DNA from: a virus
IMG/VR virus record: IMGVR_UViG_3300035701_000284
Location: 1-24,373 of that record
Direction: 5' to 3' (one strand)
Length of the DNA: 24,373 bases
The position numbers and the translations under genes were made by a program. Of the stretch, positions 95 through 18,149 are shown piece by piece; position 1 is the stretch's first letter; each line of letters starts with the position of its first letter. The notes beneath the pieces are model-generated. The model made no database searches. It saw only the letters and a program-made list of their open reading frames with translations, and was not told the origin of the DNA.

Positions 95-493
95 CTACTT
101 TCGCTCAATCAAGGCTTGCACGATCACGAGCAAATCGAACACATGCCCCAATTCTACCTTAGTCTTGCCTGACATGCTGCCTTCAAGTCTTGCGACCATT
201 TGCAACAGGCGTGCGCGTTCGCGTTCGCGTGTCACGATTCTCTCTTCCAATTCTGACAATAATGCCATATGTTTCTTCTCCTCTTGTTCAATTTGAACCG
301 CTTCAAAATCCCACTGTTTCAACTTGGTGAGCCATGTGGGGAATGGACTCTCAACCACAGTAATAGGATTGCAATACTGCACCGGCACGTATGGGCATAG
401 GATAAACCCAGGTCGGTAATTGCCCATGTAGGGTGGTTGCACGTCACTAATATCATAGCGGTCAAACCATGCAGCAATTTCCCGTGGGGTCAT
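95..493 (-). CDS. Unknown protein with coiled coil, after the clamp
   Basis: This 132-residue protein is not recognised. Residues 1-60 contain aromatic and proline-rich stretches (PPYMGNYRPGFILCPYVPVQ). Residues 65-132 form a probable coiled coil (EAVQIEQEEKKHMALLSELEER onward) with a C-terminal hydrophobic helix. Translation is coupled to the clamp through TAATG, so the products are made together. A hairpin follows its stop. A clamp-associated or structural role is possible but only from position. Confidence 0.7.
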   Translation of the reverse strand: MTPREIAAWFDRYDISDVQPPYMGNYRPGFILCPYVPVQYCNPITVVESPFPTWLTKLKQWDFEAVQIEQEEKKHMALLSELEERIVTRERERARLLQMVARLEGSMSGKTKVELGHVFDLLVIVQALIERK

Positions 494-1161
494 TACTTCG
501 CCTTCTGCTCTAAAGCGATCCAGTAGGCTAACTTGCGAGCGGTGTTCTCAAAGTGCGAGACCCCCTTGGAAGAGATCGTAACCTTGTAGGTGCCTGGGAG
601 CATCTTCCAGTTCTCGGTTTTGAACATGAAAAAGCAATCTGGTCCGGTGTGGGTTTCCACTCTGAGGGTATCGGTATGCGCGGCATCGTTTGCGCCATCG
701 AGGAGTTGGAGAGACAGGAATCCCCCTTGACCCACCACGGCAATGTTCGGGCATCCTAGGACACTGGCACACTTCATTGCCCATTCCATATCAGCTTCCG
801 TCAACAGGAAGGTGGCATCTTGTGTGGGCACCACGATGTTTTTATCGGGTGCTGGCTTCACAGCGGAAGCGTCACAACAACGGTAAGTGATCTTGCTGCG
901 TCCATCCAGCCCACTAATCACTAAGTTGTTTCCATCAATATCAAGGTCTGGTGTTTGTTTGTGGAGGGAGAGAATGGCGAGGAGTTGAGTCAGTTCCCCG
1001 ATACCAAAGTCCACTGGCATCGTTTCATCAATGGTGGCTTCTGCGAGGATCGTCTTTTCTTTGCTGACGGTGCGGAGCAGGTTGCCTTTCTTGATAAAGA
1101 TACCGTCTTGGATTGCGGCATAATTCTTGAGTAACTCTAAGGTGGCTTCTGACAACTTCAT
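493..1161 (-). CDS. gp45: DNA polymerase sliding clamp (T4 gp45-like)
   Basis: The 222 residues match T4 gp45 (228). Shared features are the start MKLSEATLELLKNYAAIQDG (MKLSKDTTALLKNFATINSG in T4), the LAILSL segment, DGRSKITYRCCDAS and a C-terminal KMLPGTYKVTISSKG (KMQPGNYKLLLWAKG). It forms a ring that tethers the polymerase to DNA and in T4 activates late transcription through gp55. It has a dedicated strong promoter. The next gene starts on its stop codon (TAATG). Clamp loader genes are not seen in the window. Confidence 0.95.
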   Translation of the reverse strand: MKLSEATLELLKNYAAIQDGIFIKKGNLLRTVSKEKTILAEATIDETMPVDFGIGELTQLLAILSLHKQTPDLDIDGNNLVISGLDGRSKITYRCCDASAVKPAPDKNIVVPTQDATFLLTEADMEWAMKCASVLGCPNIAVVGQGGFLSLQLLDGANDAAHTDTLRVETHTGPDCFFMFKTENWKMLPGTYKVTISSKGVSHFENTARKLAYWIALEQKAK

Positions 1162-1208
1162 GGGAACCTCACAAATGAATAATAATGTAGTGATACACGA
1201 CAGATAAG

Positions 1209-1237
1209 ATTATAGCACAACGGAGTGGGAAAGTCAA
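1209..1237 (-). promoter_or_regulatory. Strong sigma70 promoter for the sliding clamp
   Basis: The -35 is TTGACT (1232-1237), the spacer is 17, and the -10 is a perfect TATAAT (1209-1214) preceded by TGC (extended -10). TATCTGTCGTG follows, as at 4236-4264. A start near 1202 gives a leader of about 40 bases with GAGG before the ATG at 1161. Confidence 0.9.
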
Positions 1238-1900
1238 TCACATTCGTATCCGATCATCGGCATGGGTCTGTGTGGGCATGACTCGTTCAAACATTTCATG
1301 ATTTTGGGCAATGTGGCGCACGGCGTCCCGCAAGTTGGATAAGGTGCCATCGTTATAGATGATGTGATTGATTGGAGACCCGACCCAATCCCACTCGGAT
1401 TGATGGACCCCAATCATTTCTGTTGGGGAAAGTCCTTCGGTATTCACCTTCCATGCGGTGTCATACCAAGACGGTTCATCCCCACGGCGGACCCGCACAA
1501 TCACCCCACCTTCCTTTTGTATTACTGCGATTTCGTTCTTGAAACGAACATCAGTCACCACGGTATTCCCCCGTTTGTTGCAGCGATTGAGCAAACTGAT
1601 AACCCAAATATCCTGATGGAATACGTTGCGTCCCGCTTCGGTGCCTAGGAGTTGCAAGGCTAACCGTGGGGAGAATGGTTTTCCGAATTTCTCTGACCAG
1701 AATTCATCGGGTTGTTCCCGCCAATCCCTTGAGGCTTTTGTGCTCCCCTCAAGCATGGTGCGATTCCACCCAAAGATATTAGCCACGGCATCTTTGAGCG
1801 GTGCTGCAAAGGAGTCTTGGACAAAGCCGTGATCCTGTACGAGCAAATCTCCTACAGTTCCCTTTCCGCACCCGATGAATCCGACAAGACCGATAATCAT
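1238..1900 (-). CDS. gp1: Deoxynucleoside monophosphate kinase (T4 gp1-like)
   Basis: This 220-residue protein has a P-loop GFIGCGKGT (7-15), then FAAPLKDAVANIFGW, and a central LLGTEAGRNVFHQDIWV with VVTDVRFKNE. These are characteristic of the T4 gp1 dNMP kinase family (241 residues in T4), which phosphorylates dGMP, dTMP and modified dCMP. The start has AGGAG eight bases upstream. Its TGA stop directly abuts the -35 box of the clamp promoter. Confidence 0.9.
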   Translation of the reverse strand: MIIGLVGFIGCGKGTVGDLLVQDHGFVQDSFAAPLKDAVANIFGWNRTMLEGSTKASRDWREQPDEFWSEKFGKPFSPRLALQLLGTEAGRNVFHQDIWVISLLNRCNKRGNTVVTDVRFKNEIAVIQKEGGVIVRVRRGDEPSWYDTAWKVNTEGLSPTEMIGVHQSEWDWVGSPINHIIYNDGTLSNLRDAVRHIAQNHEMFERVMPTQTHADDRIRM

Positions 1901-1914
1901 AATAAAGACTCCTG

Positions 1915-2709
1915 TTAGAGTTTCCCAGTCAATTCAGCGATCTTTGCCATGTTCCCAGTAAAGGCGAACGTGCCAACATGTTGCGTCTGAATCCAGGGGC
2001 ACAACCAAATCTGCCCACCAGTCCGACGAAACCATTGGCAAAACGCATAATCTTCTGAGAGGTATCGCTCTGAGACCGGATCAATTTCTGTGTCAAAAAA
2101 CGCATGAATGTAGCGGGTGCCATCAAAATTCTTTTGCCCAACGTGATCGGGGCGATATTTCTTCTCAGGATACGCAGCAGCCCATACCGCAAACACTTCT
2201 CGTTTAATGAGCATGTAGCCTGTGCCAATCTCCATGACTTCCAAGGGTTCAGAGACTTGGAATCGCTCAGTGCCTTTGACGACATTGAACACGTAGTCAC
2301 CCACGACATTTTCAAGTTCCTTGGGGTCCAGGGTGGGATGGTTGCGTGCGGCGGTAGCGACATTGCCCCAGTTGATTGCCTTCTTGGGGTAGGGTGCACC
2401 GATTACATCTTTGTCCAGTGCCATCATTGCGATGATATCTTGAGGATTGAAATGGATATCCGCGTCAATGAAGAGAAGGTGGGTGAAGTCTGTTCGCAGG
2501 AATTCATCAACGAGGTAATTACGGGCCCTGGTAATTAAACTCTCATTGAAAATAAATGAGAAGCGGGATGTGATGCCGTATTGCTGGAAGATGGTCTGAA
2601 GGTCTAGACAACTCTTCATATACATGCCTAGACACTGACCCCCATACATAGGTGTCGCAATAAAAATCTTCTGCTTCCGAAGTTGCTCAATATCAATCTT
2701 TATTTCCAT
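1915..2709 (-). CDS. Glycosyltransferase-like protein (GT-A fold)
   Basis: This 264-residue protein has IFIATPMYGGQC near residue 15-26, then RARNYLVDEFLRTDFTHLLF leading to IDADIHF, with a D-x-D motif at Asp82 and Asp84 that would bind metal and a nucleotide sugar. It ends with a conserved-looking ERYLSEDYAFCQWFRRTGG, the ED acceptor-side motif of GT-A enzymes. Targets could be modified phage DNA bases, virion proteins or host glycans; none is shown. The start has GGAGG six bases before ATG. It lies 14 bases before the dNMP kinase. Confidence 0.82.
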   Translation of the reverse strand: MEIKIDIEQLRKQKIFIATPMYGGQCLGMYMKSCLDLQTIFQQYGITSRFSFIFNESLITRARNYLVDEFLRTDFTHLLFIDADIHFNPQDIIAMMALDKDVIGAPYPKKAINWGNVATAARNHPTLDPKELENVVGDYVFNVVKGTERFQVSEPLEVMEIGTGYMLIKREVFAVWAAAYPEKKYRPDHVGQKNFDGTRYIHAFFDTEIDPVSERYLSEDYAFCQWFRRTGGQIWLCPWIQTQHVGTFAFTGNMAKIAELTGKL

Positions 2710-2773
2710 GCCAAACCTCCATGTGTGTAGTGAGTGTCAGTAGTATATATGCGTCATTTTTTGGAACTGAGTC

Positions 2774-2857
2774 CTAGCATGGTGTGTAGCAAATGGCAAA
2801 CACAAGGAGGGCTATCAACAAAAACCATAGCAGTTCTTCTACTACTACGGCGTTCAT
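2774..2857 (-). CDS. 27-residue predicted membrane peptide
   Basis: This very short frame begins at the ATG that overlaps the deaminase stop (ATGA), the common coupling junction in this genome. It encodes a short acidic N-terminus (MNAVVVEELL) followed by a single hydrophobic segment of about 15 residues (WFLLIALLVFAICY) and ends T-P-C. No separate ribosome binding site is obvious, so translation would be coupled. Single-pass peptides of this size occur in phages as holin-like or inhibitor peptides, but no specific role can be assigned. Chance is possible for a frame this short. Confidence 0.5.
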   Translation of the reverse strand: MNAVVVEELLWFLLIALLVFAICYTPC

Positions 2858-3312
2858 GCTGTGCCTACCTTTTCCACAAGATCAGGAATTAGCACTACTT
2901 GAACCCCTGCTTCATGATACAGCGTTTGGCTCAACTCAATAGACTTCTCCCATCGGGGATTGAAGGACAGCGGGGCAACCACTCGTTTGATACCTGCGTT
3001 GATTATGATTGCGGTGCATTTAGAACAGGAGAGGAACGGCCAGAGGAATAGAGTAGTGCCCTCAAGAGGCTGAGTCGCAAATAACAGAGCATTGATCTCT
3101 CCATGTATGACCATGCTGTATTTCACTTCACGATCATTCAATCGTTCGGGGGTGTCTTTCACACCACGCGGAAATCCATTATAGCCTGTCGAAATAATCC
3201 GATTGCGCTTATCCACAATCACAGCACCTACGCATGTGGAAGGGTCTTTTGACCATGTGCTGATATACCGAGCGAGTTCAATGAACCTCAAATCCCATTT
3301 ATTTCGGAACAT
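2854..3312 (-). CDS. Deoxycytidylate (dCMP) deaminase
   Basis: The 152 residues contain HGEINALLFA with the zinc-binding His and catalytic Glu, and LSCSKCTAIIINAGIKRVV with the two zinc Cys. This is the cytidine/deoxycytidylate deaminase signature; Ser replaces the usual Pro before the first Cys. An N-terminal FIELARYISTWSKDPSTCVGAVI is also typical. The enzyme converts dCMP to dUMP for dTMP synthesis. The start chosen is ATG at 3312, nine bases after GGAG; ATGs at 3321 and 3327 have no binding site. It fits the nearby dNMP kinase in nucleotide supply. Confidence 0.92.
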   Translation of the reverse strand: MFRNKWDLRFIELARYISTWSKDPSTCVGAVIVDKRNRIISTGYNGFPRGVKDTPERLNDREVKYSMVIHGEINALLFATQPLEGTTLFLWPFLSCSKCTAIIINAGIKRVVAPLSFNPRWEKSIELSQTLYHEAGVQVVLIPDLVEKVGTA

Positions 3313-3788: not shown

Positions 3789-3809
3789 ACGAACTAGGGT
3801 TTAGTTCGT
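3789..3809 (-). other. Hairpin over the winged-helix gene stop codon
   Basis: On the minus strand ACGAACTA, a 5-base loop and TAGTTCGT form a perfect 8-bp stem; the TAA stop spans the end of the first arm and the loop. It precedes the terminator at 3734-3776. It is the longest of the six stop-codon hairpins. Confidence 0.65.
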
Positions 3810-4079
3810 TGCGCCCTTTGCGGTCACGCCACGATAGGCGCATTCCGAAGCAAACGTAGCCGAAGGCTTGCCCAATCGGTAGACGTTGACTGGCGAACCA
3901 TCTCCACGCTTCTTGGCGTTGAGATAAATCGCATAGCCTTCGCTACGGAGTGCGGAGATCACGGCATTGACATTACGAATGCCAAAACGTGCGCGAGCCT
4001 GTGCAACGCTAAGGGTGTTGTAACCCGAAGTCTTGCTCAAGAATGAAAGGATGCGGGACTTTGCTGAAACATTAGACAT
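3801..4079 (-). CDS. Small winged-helix/HTH protein, possible regulator
   Basis: This 92-residue protein reads SRILSFLSKTSGYNTLSVAQARARFGIRNVNAVISALRSEGYAIYL, a helix-turn-helix arrangement in which NVNAVISALRSEGY would be the recognition helix. A short wing with NAKKRGDGSPVNVYRLG follows. It probably binds DNA. The start is ATG at 4079 with GAGG five bases upstream; an ATG at 4145 would add 22 unconserved-looking residues. It is a single-gene unit with the strongest promoter in the window, a long leader, a stop-codon hairpin and its own terminator, which fits an abundant early regulator. Targets are unknown. Confidence 0.82.
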   Translation of the reverse strand: MSNVSAKSRILSFLSKTSGYNTLSVAQARARFGIRNVNAVISALRSEGYAIYLNAKKRGDGSPVNVYRLGKPSATFASECAYRGVTAKGATN

Positions 4080-4229
4080 AAAAACCTCACTATTGAAATA
4101 CCGCAGAATGGGAGCGCGGCGAACCTCCATAACAAACGAACACATTAGACAACTAACCGGTGTATCACATAAATCCCCCTAGATGCAAAAAAGATTGAAC
4201 TGTTACTGTAGAGAACAATTCGCACGACA
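4080..4229 (-). other. Long 5' leader with a start-stop element
   Basis: This leader precedes the winged-helix gene. It contains AGGGGG (4180-4175), four bases later ATG, directly followed by TGA (4170-4165): a ribosome binding site with a start-stop pair. An in-frame N-terminal extension of the downstream gene (ATG at 4145) has no binding site. No larger gene or riboswitch pattern is recognised. Confidence 0.4.
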
Positions 4230-5664: not shown

Positions 5665-8082
5665 TCAATGGGCAGCAATAAGGTTCATGAAACGCGAGAC
5701 TAGCACGCGAGACACAAACTGCTTTCTTGACACCTTGCGAAACGCATCCTCTAACCGTTCAGCATTCCACTTCTTTGCGCGTCCCTCAAGTTCCATCTTC
5801 CTAGAGTGGGTAGACAGATTATCGTTTCCGCCGGGAATAAAATAGAATCGCGTAAACCCCTTGCTATACGACTCAAGGAATTTCTCCTCTTCAAGTTTCT
5901 GTTTCAGCCCTTCTACCATGATAAGTGCGTCTCCCTGCAACGAATACTTCGTATACCTCCCCAACTCCACACCGTCCTTGTTCGTATACATCTTCGCTAA
6001 GGCATGGTCAACATCGCTCCCGACTACAAAGAATCCAAAGATTCCGCATCCTGTTGTGGCGTGTAGCCAGTTCAGGAGTCCCACGGTCAACCCATGCTGC
6101 GTTTGGGGGCAATCAAAAGACATCCTGGCTTTGACATCATGAATGGTGACCCGGTCTGTGGTCTGGTCAAACCGCGCATGATCGGGCATCGTATTTTTCG
6201 CGTCACTGCGGTTCGGGTCAATGGGCACTCCCTCTGTGTAGATTGCGTAGTTCGGGTCCGCATCGCCATCGTGCATGATGATCGTGTTCACCAAATCCAG
6301 GTTGAACTTCTTTCTGAAATTTCGCACCACGTCACGCAACACGATAATGGCTTCGTTGAGTGGGGTGGTCCCCATGCTCTCATAGTTCGGGATGGGACTC
6401 GATAGCCTGTCCTGGTGAGTGACCTTGTATCCAGACCGTTCGCAACGCATGCCTTTTGACAATTGCAATTGCTTGGTCACGGCATTATTAAATTCTGCCC
6501 CCTGCATGTTGGAATTCAATATCTCTCGGAAAGCGAGTTTGGACATAACCATTTCACCTTCATTCATACTGAACGGGATAAGAGCGTTACTTCTCGTTCG
6601 GTATCCAAAATCATGCTCAAGCGTCTCATACCCAGGAGTGGTGAAACTATAAGCCACAAACGGGATATTGACTTTGCGGCAAAACATAGCAAGAACCATC
6701 AATTGCTCCGTTGCCCCTTCAATCATTGAACGCATCGACGATGAACGATCTAACAACAAGACCAAGCCGTGTGACTTGCCCTTGTAGGCAACCGTCAACT
6801 TCTTGAACATGTTATCGTCAAGGCGATAGCTGGCTAGTTTGTTGATATTGATATCACCCGAATTTGCAATCTTGGACTTGTTATAAGTTTTTGCGGCTTT
6901 CTTACGTTCAAACTCCTGTGCGAGCAGCCCAATGTAATCGGCATTCTTTTCCTTGAATAACCGATAAATTTCTGCACCCCTCTCCCGATCAAATGACCCG
7001 TTATAGTGGAAATTCAACCCCTTCATCACTGTCGTAATGGGAGCGACAACATCTTTGAGATTCGGAGTAGGAATGTTCACATAGACTGACTTCACTGAAG
7101 CGTCCAATACCAAGGTCTGTTGTTTCTCACGAAAAGTTTCATCAGTGCTGGCAGTAGGCAAAAACTCCTCAGCATCTACATCAGCCTCAGTGGTATCATC
7201 ATTACTGTCACCAGCGTCATTGTCACCAGCCTCAGCATCATCTACATCGTCCGCATCAGCATCAGATTCTTTCCCACCAGACTCTTCACCTTCATCCTCG
7301 GACTCTTCGCCTTCAGACCCTTCATCCTCGGACTCTTCACCTTCATCCTCGGACTCTTCGCCTTCAGACCCTTCATCCTCGGACTCTTCACCTTCATCCT
7401 CAGAATCTTGTCTCTGCTTCTCGCGCTTTTCTTGTTTCTTTTTGGCGATTTCATCCTTCTGCTTTTCCTTGTCCTCTTCGCCCTTCTTCTGTTCATCCTT
7501 GCTGAATTCAAACAACTTGTTGGTCAACGCAAGAGTCTCGTCCCAGGTCTCTATCTTCATCAATTCATCGTAGAAGGGCTGTTGTTCGGGGGTAAAGGTA
7601 ATACCCAATTGCGAACCGCACTTAGCGACCAAGTTCAGTTTGTTGATAAGGTAGAGTGTATTGTAGTCAAGAACCTTGCTCAGACCGAAAAAGTCTCGCG
7701 CAAGCAAATCCTTATATCCGCGAATCATCGGCGCACGCAGACCGGGATATTGTCTCTTGACGTGTTTTTCAATTCGGGCATCCTCAACGGTATTGAGAAA
7801 CCCATGATAGGCTTTCTGTTTCTTTTGGGAAACTTTCGTGGTTCCCCCTGCACACTCAACCGCCCGCATCCATCCCTTCGCAGGAGTGCGGAGGGCATGG
7901 GAAATTTCATGCCCCATAATCAGGTCATACAAGTCTCCCGACATGTCTTTCCAGATTGGGCATATCAACACCCGCTTTTCCAAGTCAAACTGCGCAGTCT
8001 TGGCATTGCTGTGGTGTTCCACGCGAATGTTTTCTGTTGCCATCAACTTCGCCAACAGACTTTTTGTTTCAGCAGTAAACAA
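5665..8082 (-). CDS. Metallopeptidase-like plus VWA domain protein (CobT-like), partner of AAA+ ATPase
   Basis: This 805-residue protein has three parts. Residues 1-190 form a putative zinc metallopeptidase domain with H58-E-I-S-H62 and the family segment NTVEDARIEK (97-106). A highly charged linker (195-300) contains an acidic tandem repeat. The C-terminal VWA domain has the MIDAS motif LLDRSSSM (D445, S447, S449), a later TTPLNEA and MHDGDAD. Such proteins pair with MoxR/CobS-type AAA+ ATPases and remodel or load metal into targets; similar pairs occur in T4-like phages. The start is TTG at 8082, eight bases after GGAG; no in-frame ATG lies closer and Met14 lacks a binding site. Confidence 0.85.
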   Translation of the reverse strand: MFTAETKSLLAKLMATENIRVEHHSNAKTAQFDLEKRVLICPIWKDMSGDLYDLIMGHEISHALRTPAKGWMRAVECAGGTTKVSQKKQKAYHGFLNTVEDARIEKHVKRQYPGLRAPMIRGYKDLLARDFFGLSKVLDYNTLYLINKLNLVAKCGSQLGITFTPEQQPFYDELMKIETWDETLALTNKLFEFSKDEQKKGEEDKEKQKDEIAKKKQEKREKQRQDSEDEGEESEDEGSEGEESEDEGEESEDEGSEGEESEDEGEESGGKESDADADDVDDAEAGDNDAGDSNDDTTEADVDAEEFLPTASTDETFREKQQTLVLDASVKSVYVNIPTPNLKDVVAPITTVMKGLNFHYNGSFDRERGAEIYRLFKEKNADYIGLLAQEFERKKAAKTYNKSKIANSGDININKLASYRLDDNMFKKLTVAYKGKSHGLVLLLDRSSSMRSMIEGATEQLMVLAMFCRKVNIPFVAYSFTTPGYETLEHDFGYRTRSNALIPFSMNEGEMVMSKLAFREILNSNMQGAEFNNAVTKQLQLSKGMRCERSGYKVTHQDRLSSPIPNYESMGTTPLNEAIIVLRDVVRNFRKKFNLDLVNTIIMHDGDADPNYAIYTEGVPIDPNRSDAKNTMPDHARFDQTTDRVTIHDVKARMSFDCPQTQHGLTVGLLNWLHATTGCGIFGFFVVGSDVDHALAKMYTNKDGVELGRYTKYSLQGDALIMVEGLKQKLEEEKFLESYSKGFTRFYFIPGGNDNLSTHSRKMELEGRAKKWNAERLEDAFRKVSRKQFVSRVLVSRFMNLIAAH
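7281..7401. repeat. 51-bp tandem repeat in the VWA gene
   Basis: Two identical 51-bp units (7281-7331 and 7332-7382) and a 19-base partial third (7383-7401) encode a 17-residue acidic unit of Glu, Asp, Ser and Gly. Each unit also contains internal Glu/Asp/Gly subrepeats. Base-perfect copies imply recent expansion or ongoing slippage, so length may vary between isolates. Confidence 0.92.
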
Positions 8083-8086
8083 GATG

Positions 8087-8344
8087 TTATCTCCACATGT
8101 CGTAAGAGGTTGATTCGGTAGTAGGCGGAAGGACTACGCTATGCGCGTTTGTCGCACGCAAAACTTCGTCCCAAAACGCGGAGTTGAAAGTCTTACCCTT
8201 GGTCGTGTAGTTTACCCACAAATATCGGCGACCATAGCGCATTCCCGCCTCAGCGATAACGCGACCTGTTGCCTTGCCCATGCCATATTGTGAGGTATGA
8301 CCGACGAACATTCCAACGACGATGCTGTGTTGTGTCTTTTTCAT
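8087..8344 (-). CDS. Small unknown protein, predicted leaderless
   Basis: This 85-residue protein starts MKKTQHSIVVGMFVGHTS and contains aromatic and basic segments (GMRYGRRYLWVNYTTKGK). I do not recognise a family. An alternative start is Met12, but neither start has a ribosome binding site. The promoter places transcription initiation exactly at the first ATG. It is four bases ahead of the metallopeptidase-VWA gene, and GGAG inside its last codons serves that gene, so the two are cotranscribed. Confidence 0.72.
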   Translation of the reverse strand: MKKTQHSIVVGMFVGHTSQYGMGKATGRVIAEAGMRYGRRYLWVNYTTKGKTFNSAFWDEVLRATNAHSVVLPPTTESTSYDMWR

Positions 8345-8350
8345 ACTATA

Positions 8351-8378
8351 ATTATAGCATATTGGCAGGAAATGTCAA
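8351..8378 (-). promoter_or_regulatory. Sigma70 promoter giving a leaderless mRNA
   Basis: The -35 is a perfect TTGACA (8373-8378), the spacer is 16, and the -10 is a perfect TATAAT (8351-8356) preceded by TGC (extended -10). Six bases (TATAGT) separate it from the ATG at 8344, so the expected first transcribed base is the A of the start codon. Confidence 0.88.
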
Positions 8379-10154: not shown

Positions 10155-10174
10155 GATTGAATAGAATATCAATC
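10155..10174 (-). other. Hairpin over the SLOG gene stop codon
   Basis: The minus strand has GATTGA, an 8-base loop and TCAATC, a 6-bp stem whose 5' arm contains the TGA stop. No T-run follows. It is one of the six stop-codon hairpins of this window. Confidence 0.5.
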
Positions 10175-10564
10175 AACATATAAACACATACTGGGTTGAT
10201 AGATCGTCTGAATTCCTTGTTCAGTATACACGAACACTTTGATGTTTTGTTTTCGTGCCTGCTTCACCATATTCAGGGTGCCTTTAGAATTCTGAATATC
10301 ATTGTGGAAAGCCACCACCATGTCAGGCTTGCCTTCATCCAACATTTGTTTGTTGCGAATGGGTCCCGCAGCCCGTCCATATTGCCCCCAATCGGCGTGA
10401 AATGGAAGCACCGGAATTCCAAAATACTCCGCTGCATCTCTGGCGAGTGAATCCGCACCTGGGGCTTCCCCCTCTATGACTGCATCAGGATTGAGGTCTG
10501 CCATCACGTCACAGATGGATTTGTAGTTGGTCCAATGTCTGTCACCGCAAAATAAAATTCTCAT
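10169..10564 (-). CDS. SLOG / YspA-like (DUF2493) nucleotide-binding protein
   Basis: This 131-residue protein has the features of the YspA branch of the SLOG superfamily: an N-terminal strand with CGDRHWTN (6-13), then VIEGEAPGADSLARDAAEYF and RAAGPIRNKQML. These motifs form a Rossmann-like pocket thought to bind a nucleotide or nucleotide-derived ligand. The biochemical role is unknown, although SLOG domains recur in bacterial defence and signalling. The start chosen is ATG at 10564; a GTG five codons upstream overlaps the -10 box. No ribosome binding site is visible, consistent with a leaderless mRNA. Confidence 0.82.
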   Translation of the reverse strand: MRILFCGDRHWTNYKSICDVMADLNPDAVIEGEAPGADSLARDAAEYFGIPVLPFHADWGQYGRAAGPIRNKQMLDEGKPDMVVAFHNDIQNSKGTLNMVKQARKQNIKVFVYTEQGIQTIYQPSMCLYVD

Positions 10565-10569
10565 GATGT

Positions 10570-10598
10570 ATTGTATCACAGTTAGGAAAGTTTGTCAA
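10570..10598 (-). promoter_or_regulatory. Sigma70 promoter giving a leaderless SLOG mRNA
   Basis: The -35 is a perfect TTGACA (10593-10598), the spacer is 17, and the -10 is TACAAT (10570-10575) with TGA before it (extended -10). Only five bases separate the -10 from the ATG at 10564, so the predicted start is at or one base within the start codon. Confidence 0.82.
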
Positions 10599-17261: not shown

Positions 17262-17729
17262 TTAGTGACCACCACCAGCAATAAACATTTCCCACTTGAC
17301 AATATCTTTGAGTGCAAAGGTGCGGGAATTCAGTTCTTTGAGAATGCGTTCGCAGATATCTAAAATTTCTTCATGCACCGCTAGCACGGCTTTTCCATTG
17401 AGCAAATCTTTGTCGGACTCCATGTAGGTGACCAGATCACCCTTCAGGGTATAGGGAAAGGGTTGCCATTGGCATTTCTCAAGGGTGTCTTGATCGAGTC
17501 TACCAGTATAGTATTCATGCTTGAGCCTCTTGAGTTTGGCAATCTTCCGTTCGGCCGCTCTCAAGGCTCTGCGGTGGGATGATAAGATGTTCATATACTT
17601 GGCTTGTAGCACAGGGACCTTACGCAACTCTTCTGCGGGTTCAAGCTTATCCATCTTGGCATCACCCGCCCACTCTTCTAAGAGGGCATCCACTTGTTCC
17701 TCTGAGACCTTGGAGGTATCAATTTTCAT
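17262..17729 (-). CDS. uvsY: UvsY-like recombination mediator
   Basis: The 155 residues align by eye with T4 UvsY (137) in several places: a basic helix RRALRAAERKIAKLKRLKHE, then YYTGR (YYSGR in T4), SDKDLL (ADKDVL), ILDICERIL (ILLDFCSGAL) and SRTFALKDI ending in FIAGG. UvsY loads the UvsX recombinase onto gp32-coated single-stranded DNA. The start is the ATG inside the upstream stop overlap (ATGA), 21 bases after a TTG alternative; AAAGG lies about 10 bases before it. A short N-terminal extension is rich in Glu. It is adjacent to nuclease and uvsW genes. Confidence 0.88.
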   Translation of the reverse strand: MKIDTSKVSEEQVDALLEEWAGDAKMDKLEPAEELRKVPVLQAKYMNILSSHRRALRAAERKIAKLKRLKHEYYTGRLDQDTLEKCQWQPFPYTLKGDLVTYMESDKDLLNGKAVLAVHEEILDICERILKELNSRTFALKDIVKWEMFIAGGGH

Positions 17730-18112
17730 GGTAAGGCAACCTTTAGCCAATGTTCGCGGTTTTCAACAATCGAGCGTTTTGCGTGCATGAGAGTGTAGGC
17801 TTCTGCAAACGTCATACTATGATATTTGCGGAGATACCACGCAATCGTCAATGGGGAGCGTTCCATGCCAACCGCACAGTAAACCAACAGGGGATTGTCC
17901 ACTGAAAGGTGTTCATGGATATAGTCTGCTGCTTCGTCCATTGCGTTTGGGCGAACCCCAATACCCTTATCGTGATACCATGTGGTGACGATGTGTTTGC
18001 TTTCGGGGTTGATGCCAGGTTCGCCATACCACATGACACAAAGCGAATCAATGGTCGCATCACGCCCATCGACCATGCTGCCCAAGTATAAATGTTCAAT
18101 AATCTCTTCCAT
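17726..18112 (-). CDS. Dual-specificity / tyrosine phosphatase-like protein
   Basis: This 128-residue protein has the DSP architecture: an N-terminal LYLGSMVDG strand-turn (8-16) and the catalytic loop VYCAVGMERSPLT, a C-x5-R signature with Cys79 and Arg85. Tyr replaces the usual His before the Cys. A candidate general acid is Asp48 in WYHDKG. Length fits a minimal DSP. It would remove phosphate from Tyr/Ser/Thr residues or from nucleotides or RNA 5' ends; the substrate is not evident. The start is the ATG, since a TTG two codons earlier would precede the predicted transcription start. Its stop overlaps the uvsY start by four bases (ATGA). Confidence 0.85.
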   Translation of the reverse strand: MEEIIEHLYLGSMVDGRDATIDSLCVMWYGEPGINPESKHIVTTWYHDKGIGVRPNAMDEAADYIHEHLSVDNPLLVYCAVGMERSPLTIAWYLRKYHSMTFAEAYTLMHAKRSIVENREHWLKVALP

Positions 18113-18120
18113 ATCCAACT

Positions 18121-18149
18121 ATTATACCATAGTGAAAGGTAAAAGTCAA
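18121..18149 (-). promoter_or_regulatory. Strong sigma70 promoter for the phosphatase gene
   Basis: The -35 is TTGACT (18144-18149), the spacer is 17, and the -10 is a perfect TATAAT (18121-18126) preceded by TGG (extended -10). Only eight bases separate the -10 from the phosphatase ATG, so the predicted mRNA has a 1-2 base leader. The -35 contains the stop codon of the upstream zinc-ribbon gene. Confidence 0.85.

Follow-up and report, generated by a model that had tools for sequence, protein, structure and literature searches.

The window analysed here is the whole stretch of 24,373 nt, positions 1-24,373 of IMG/VR record IMGVR_UViG_3300035701_000284. Judged by its gene content, the phage is T4-like (Kyanoviridae-like), with a gp23-type capsid protein ~60% identical to those of Synechococcus and Methylophilales phages (Kyanoviridae) and a gp55-type late sigma factor (PHROG 234, E = 1e-56). 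Our subject is a small minus-strand gene, the promoter that adjoins its start codon, and the longer gene that follows it (Table 1).

Table 1. Features of the 85-aa gene, its neighbor, and two further candidates in the window
Feature	Position	Strand	Basis
-35 hexamer TTGACA	8373..8378	-	6/6; TTGACn at the same position in 9/9 lineages
Extended -10: TG 8359-8358, C, TATAAT 8356-8351	8351..8359	-	promoter scan and sequence reading
TATAGT, the 6-nt gap, plus predicted +1 (A of start codon 8344)	8344..8350	-	spacing rule
Putatively leaderless gene for 85 aa, without PHROG/Pfam match; small all-beta domain predicted	8087..8344	-	homologues, dN/dS, AlphaFold2
GGAG Shine-Dalgarno (SD) of the peptidase cistron	8091..8094	-	sequence reading
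VWA/metallopeptidase-like "peptidase", TTG start with SD	5665..8082	-	PHROG 459, E = 1e-145
TTGACA-17-TACAAT promoter with TG, 5 nt upstream of ATG 10564	10570..10598	-	promoter scan
Second leaderless candidate, SLOG-family (YspA/YAcAr, PF10686) gene	10169..10564	-	Pfam
TTGACT-17-TATAAT promoter with TG, 8 nt upstream of ATG 18112	18121..18149	-	promoter scan
Third, less exact leaderless candidate, dual-specificity phosphatase-like gene (PF00782)	17726..18112	-	Pfam

A consensus promoter beside the start codon of an 85-aa gene

Is the short gene real? Its product had no match in PHROG or Pfam, among isolated phages, or in GTDB genomes. Homologues came from IMG/VR contigs alone: two contigs encode an identical protein, and the others form eight further distinct lineages, so that there are nine with the window, at identities to the window copy from 75 down to 34%. 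Where synonymous sites are not saturated, dN/dS is ~0.06-0.14; the gene is therefore real, and this ratio indicates that purifying selection acts on the protein. The AlphaFold2 model (pLDDT 78) is a small all-beta domain whose fold resembles small SH3/KOW-type barrels such as Ssl0352/NdhS and the NusG C-terminal domain, in weak matches that all have E > 0.05. The next gene is the one that the sequence-only reading had described as a metallopeptidase-VWA gene; its database match is to PHROG 459, a "peptidase". Its TTG comes 4 nt past the stop codon of the 85-aa gene, and its homologues agree on this starting residue. A Glu/Ser/Asp-rich repeat tract (EESEDEGSEG, window 7242-7420) separates the N-terminal part of the peptidase from the VWA-like part.

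Read 5' to 3' on the minus strand from 8378 to 8342, the start region of the 85-aa gene is TTGACA-TTTCCTGCCAATATGC-TATAAT-TATAGT-ATG, with a 16-nt spacer whose last bases, TGC, make an extended -10. Scored by match to the sigma70 consensus, the promoter reaches 12/12, a value shared by only one other site in the window's first 20 kb. The perfect hexamers noted in the sequence-only reading, ending six bases before the ATG, are confirmed. Counting the usual 7 nt on from the last base of the -10 puts the predicted +1 at the A of ATG 8344, as had been proposed. Even if up to two mismatches are tolerated, the layout of promoter, 6 nt, and ATG has a single match in the window and none in 100 dinucleotide shuffles. 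The earlier statement that neither candidate start has a ribosome binding site also stands, an SD being absent both before ATG 8344 (tataattatagt) and before ATG 8311, which is Met12 (catcgtcgttgga). A late promoter for gp55 read in TATAATTA was rejected, because homologues do not keep it.

Five other strong promoters in the window give leaders of 20-90 nt, generally with an SD. The phosphatase-like gene at 18112 has a predicted leader of 0-2 nt, and no conserved example of its placement was found in relatives. Elsewhere in the window (4264-4145), a 12/12 extended -10 promoter lies upstream of an HTH-like gene (3801-4145) with a ~90-nt leader, which contains an SD-like agggggat before an ATG TGA start-stop pair.

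Start codon and promoter spacing in nine lineages

At which codon does the protein begin? In 9/9 lineages it starts at Met1; residue 12 is Met in the window lineage only and Ser or Ala in the others. Met12, the other start that had been considered, was rejected, being neither conserved nor preceded by an SD. The first alternative start codon in lineage L003 is Met22, and the frame upstream of Met1 is nearly devoid of other starts, the exceptions being L086, with an in-frame ATG at 2986, and L083, with an adjacent GTG. A leaderless gene is expected to have its -10 box ~6-7 bp (~10-12 bp counted from the first T) before the start codon, a start codon without an SD, and a start codon that marks the actual N-terminus of a genuine protein. 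At 8344 the distance is 6 nt, the SD is absent, and the N-terminus, as judged purely by comparison, is Met1.

The promoter is conserved together with the start. All nine lineages have a TTGACn-16/17-TGn-hexamer promoter, and the distance from the end of the -10 to the ATG is 5 nt in L086 and 6 nt in the others. TGn precedes the -10 in every homologue, and the hexamers themselves vary (TATAAT, TAGACT, TAGACT, TAGAAT, TATACT, TAGACT, TAGACT, GAGAAT, and TATGAT). Constant spacing with varying hexamers is the pattern expected from selection on the position of +1. Could a good promoter simply happen to end beside an ATG? Single cases of this kind occur at background level in T4 and other controls (see below). 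However, since the distance of 5-6 nt is kept in every lineage, chance juxtaposition is no adequate explanation; with the clade-wide enrichment and the empty shuffles also against it, we regard chance as the least probable of the explanations considered.

A second possibility is that the 85-aa gene is translated, independently of an SD, mostly from a longer transcript made by read-through or from a distant promoter, and that the nearby promoter merely adds RNA. In favor of this, the genes of the window all share one strand and are separated by short gaps, and we saw no strong terminator immediately before the 85-aa gene there. However, this account leaves the 5-6 nt distance unexplained in nine lineages whose sequences diverge upstream of the promoter. 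In L081 and L082, moreover, a strong hairpin separates the upstream gene from the promoter, and the promoters of SD-led genes in the same phages lie 20-90 nt upstream. We therefore consider a longer transcript unlikely as the main source of the protein. Homologue comparison instead supports the leaderless reading of the gene, with the RNA 5' end placed by the spacing rule.

ATG placement after strong promoters in related phages and controls

How widespread is this arrangement? T4 genes normally have SD leaders, and T4-like phages are standard textbook examples of SD-led translation. The early promoters of T4 match the sigma70 consensus strongly and are used by the host polymerase. We joined related phage contigs from 20-kb pieces and scored the position of ATG after strong promoters independently of gene calling; an alternative anchor, the 5'-most ATG of long ORFs with no promoter criterion, proved too noisy for use. 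Of the strong promoters in the related contigs, a quarter to a third are followed by an ATG exactly 5-6 nt past the -10 box. The counts at this offset are 7/27 in G001 (P = 8e-5), 9/39 in G002 (P = 3e-5), 7/20 in G011 (P = 2e-5), 3/11 in G003 (P = 0.011), and 3/6 in G012 (P = 0.002), with 2/5 in G004, 2/2 in both L003 and L009, and 1/3 in L010; the per-genome P values are not mutually independent, because orthologues are counted in several contigs. The window itself (2/9, P = 0.095) is too small to show enrichment alone.

Controls gave lower values: 2/47 in T4, 5/71 in Synechococcus phage S-CREM1, 2/43 in Melnitz, 1/27 in G007, and 0/26 in G008, with a mild excess in G009 (4/27, P = 0.014). 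The promoter at 8344 shares a strong sigma70 consensus with the early promoters of T4, but the strong promoters of T4 show no excess of ATG at 5-6 nt. The sequence-only reading had called leaderless mRNAs uncommon in T4-like phages. This holds for T4 and for two isolated Kyanoviridae controls, where the placement is rare, but not for the present clade, where it recurs.

Among random IMG/VR pieces the count at offsets 5-6 was 24/377, six of them from a single contig, L333 (an IMG/VR contig of 10,247 nt). Its minus strand carries, at ~375-3200, a row of eight small ORFs of 39-110 aa, every one of which has a TTGACA-16/17-TATAAT of its own and an ATG 6-7 nt after the -10 (typically acacacATGAAG). 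A T4-type terminase is present on L333, and no relative of the window capsid was found there. The array is an independent, very regular layout of the leaderless type.

Which genes share the placement? The SLOG gene has its ATG at 5 nt in the window, L003, L009, G001, and G012, and at 8 nt in G002. A DNA polymerase-like gene is placed at 5 nt in both G001 (26749) and G002 (near 137,015), and an HD-domain gene at 6 nt in the same two contigs; both names were read from the sequence and have no database match behind them. A 155-aa gene (5 nt in G001, 6 nt in G002) and a methyltransferase-like gene (7 nt in G003, 6 nt in G004) follow the same layout. Because relatives keep the arrangement at the 85-aa gene and several others, a non-standard start of translation seems to be routine in the group.

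Not every AUG at a predicted +1 begins the main protein: in G002, G003, G011, and G012 some of them either start a very short ORF or precede an SD-led start by 9-10 codons in the same frame. Predicted 5'-terminal AUGs of this upstream (uAUG) type, 6 nt after the -10 and with short or in-frame uORFs, include G002 14838 and 20233 and G003 10347 and 12734; further ones are G011 56432 and 45809 and G012 3380. These loci fit the class of 5'-uAUG (standby) mRNAs, in which the AUG is distinct from the main SD-led start. In E. coli, 70S ribosomes bind to such 5' AUGs, which can influence the gene downstream (PMC4965119). Might the promoter at 8344 likewise serve the peptidase, its +1 AUG being a regulatory or standby uAUG and the short ORF incidental? 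That 70S binding, and the uAUGs that relatives place before SD-led genes, including the peptidase in G003 and G012, speak for this. Yet in those two contigs the peptidase also has a separate promoter of its own after the 85-aa gene, and the 85-aa ORF encodes a protein that is conserved and subject to purifying selection. Unlike the E. coli cases, AUG 8344 begins the conserved gene itself, which puts it outside the 5'-uAUG class; we judge this alternative very improbable, ahead of chance only.

Probable leaderless expression in an uncultured T4-like clade

We consider it very likely that host sigma70 polymerase makes a leaderless mRNA of the gene at 8344-8087, with +1 at the gene's own AUG, and that this is one instance of an expression mode of the clade. 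The host enzyme would recognize the extended -10 promoter and begin RNA at the A of the AUG, give or take ~1 nt, so that the mRNA would lack a 5' untranslated region. Ribosomes would load directly on the 5'-terminal AUG, presumably, as on other leaderless mRNAs, in the form of intact 70S particles with fMet-tRNA. The peptidase cistron is probably on the same RNA and initiated separately at its own SD.

Leaderless genes are known in Actinobacteria (PMC3160421) and in Deinococcus-Thermus, where the -10 motif stands 6-7 bp before the ORF, a spacing matched here (PMC12340547). The phage gene resembles these in having the -10 directly before the start codon, no SD, and a start codon at the predicted +1. 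Surveys of those bacteria report mainly TANNNT, whereas this gene, in a T4-like phage, has a full TTGACA -35 and an extended -10. Among phages, one comparison is lambda cI, one repressor gene of a temperate phage. Its mRNA is named as leaderless in a paper that also gives binding of 70S particles to the 5'-terminal AUG of leaderless mRNAs as established (PMC9031893), and it is likewise a phage gene with its +1 at the AUG; unlike that one gene, the candidates here are many genes of a T4-like clade, DNA polymerase among them. According to one paper, phage transcripts often lack a leader (PMC5312081). Leaderless mRNAs as such are a known kind; a T4-like clade that uses them systematically appears not to have been reported, in that we found no such report in the part of the literature that is searchable.

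Is the layout tied to a phase of infection? A late-type promoter, TATAAATA, lies at 22654-22647 of the window ahead of an SD-led structural gene; therefore the leaderless layout seems to be tied to non-late genes, a timing that we infer. The leaderless mode would serve the 85-aa, SLOG, HD-domain, DNA polymerase, and other genes, all probably non-late, and at least one structural gene retains the T4 style of that late promoter plus an SD. We lean slightly toward a wider reading, in which this uncultured clade has made a set of early or middle genes leaderless, including DNA polymerase, and has added 5'-terminal AUGs before SD-led genes, so that infection-phase genes would be translated apart from an SD-dependent late program.

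The layout may also hint at a host that makes common use of leaderless translation. A search for host markers in the phage found neither psbA nor whiB. The closest capsid in a genome bin, 67% identical, is in a Lake Baikal Nitrospirae MAG (L362, NSIK01000020.1); it may be a weak host lead, or possibly a mis-binned phage contig. In 483 kb of this MAG we counted 19 strong promoters, a number too small for judging its use of leaderless genes.

For genome annotation, starts of this kind would be misplaced by those start-site predictors that look for an SD, and gene calling is affected accordingly. For the biology of the group, a clade that repeatedly places +1 on the AUG of conserved genes, with fixed spacing, would be a natural set in which to study competition between leaderless and SD-led initiation during infection.
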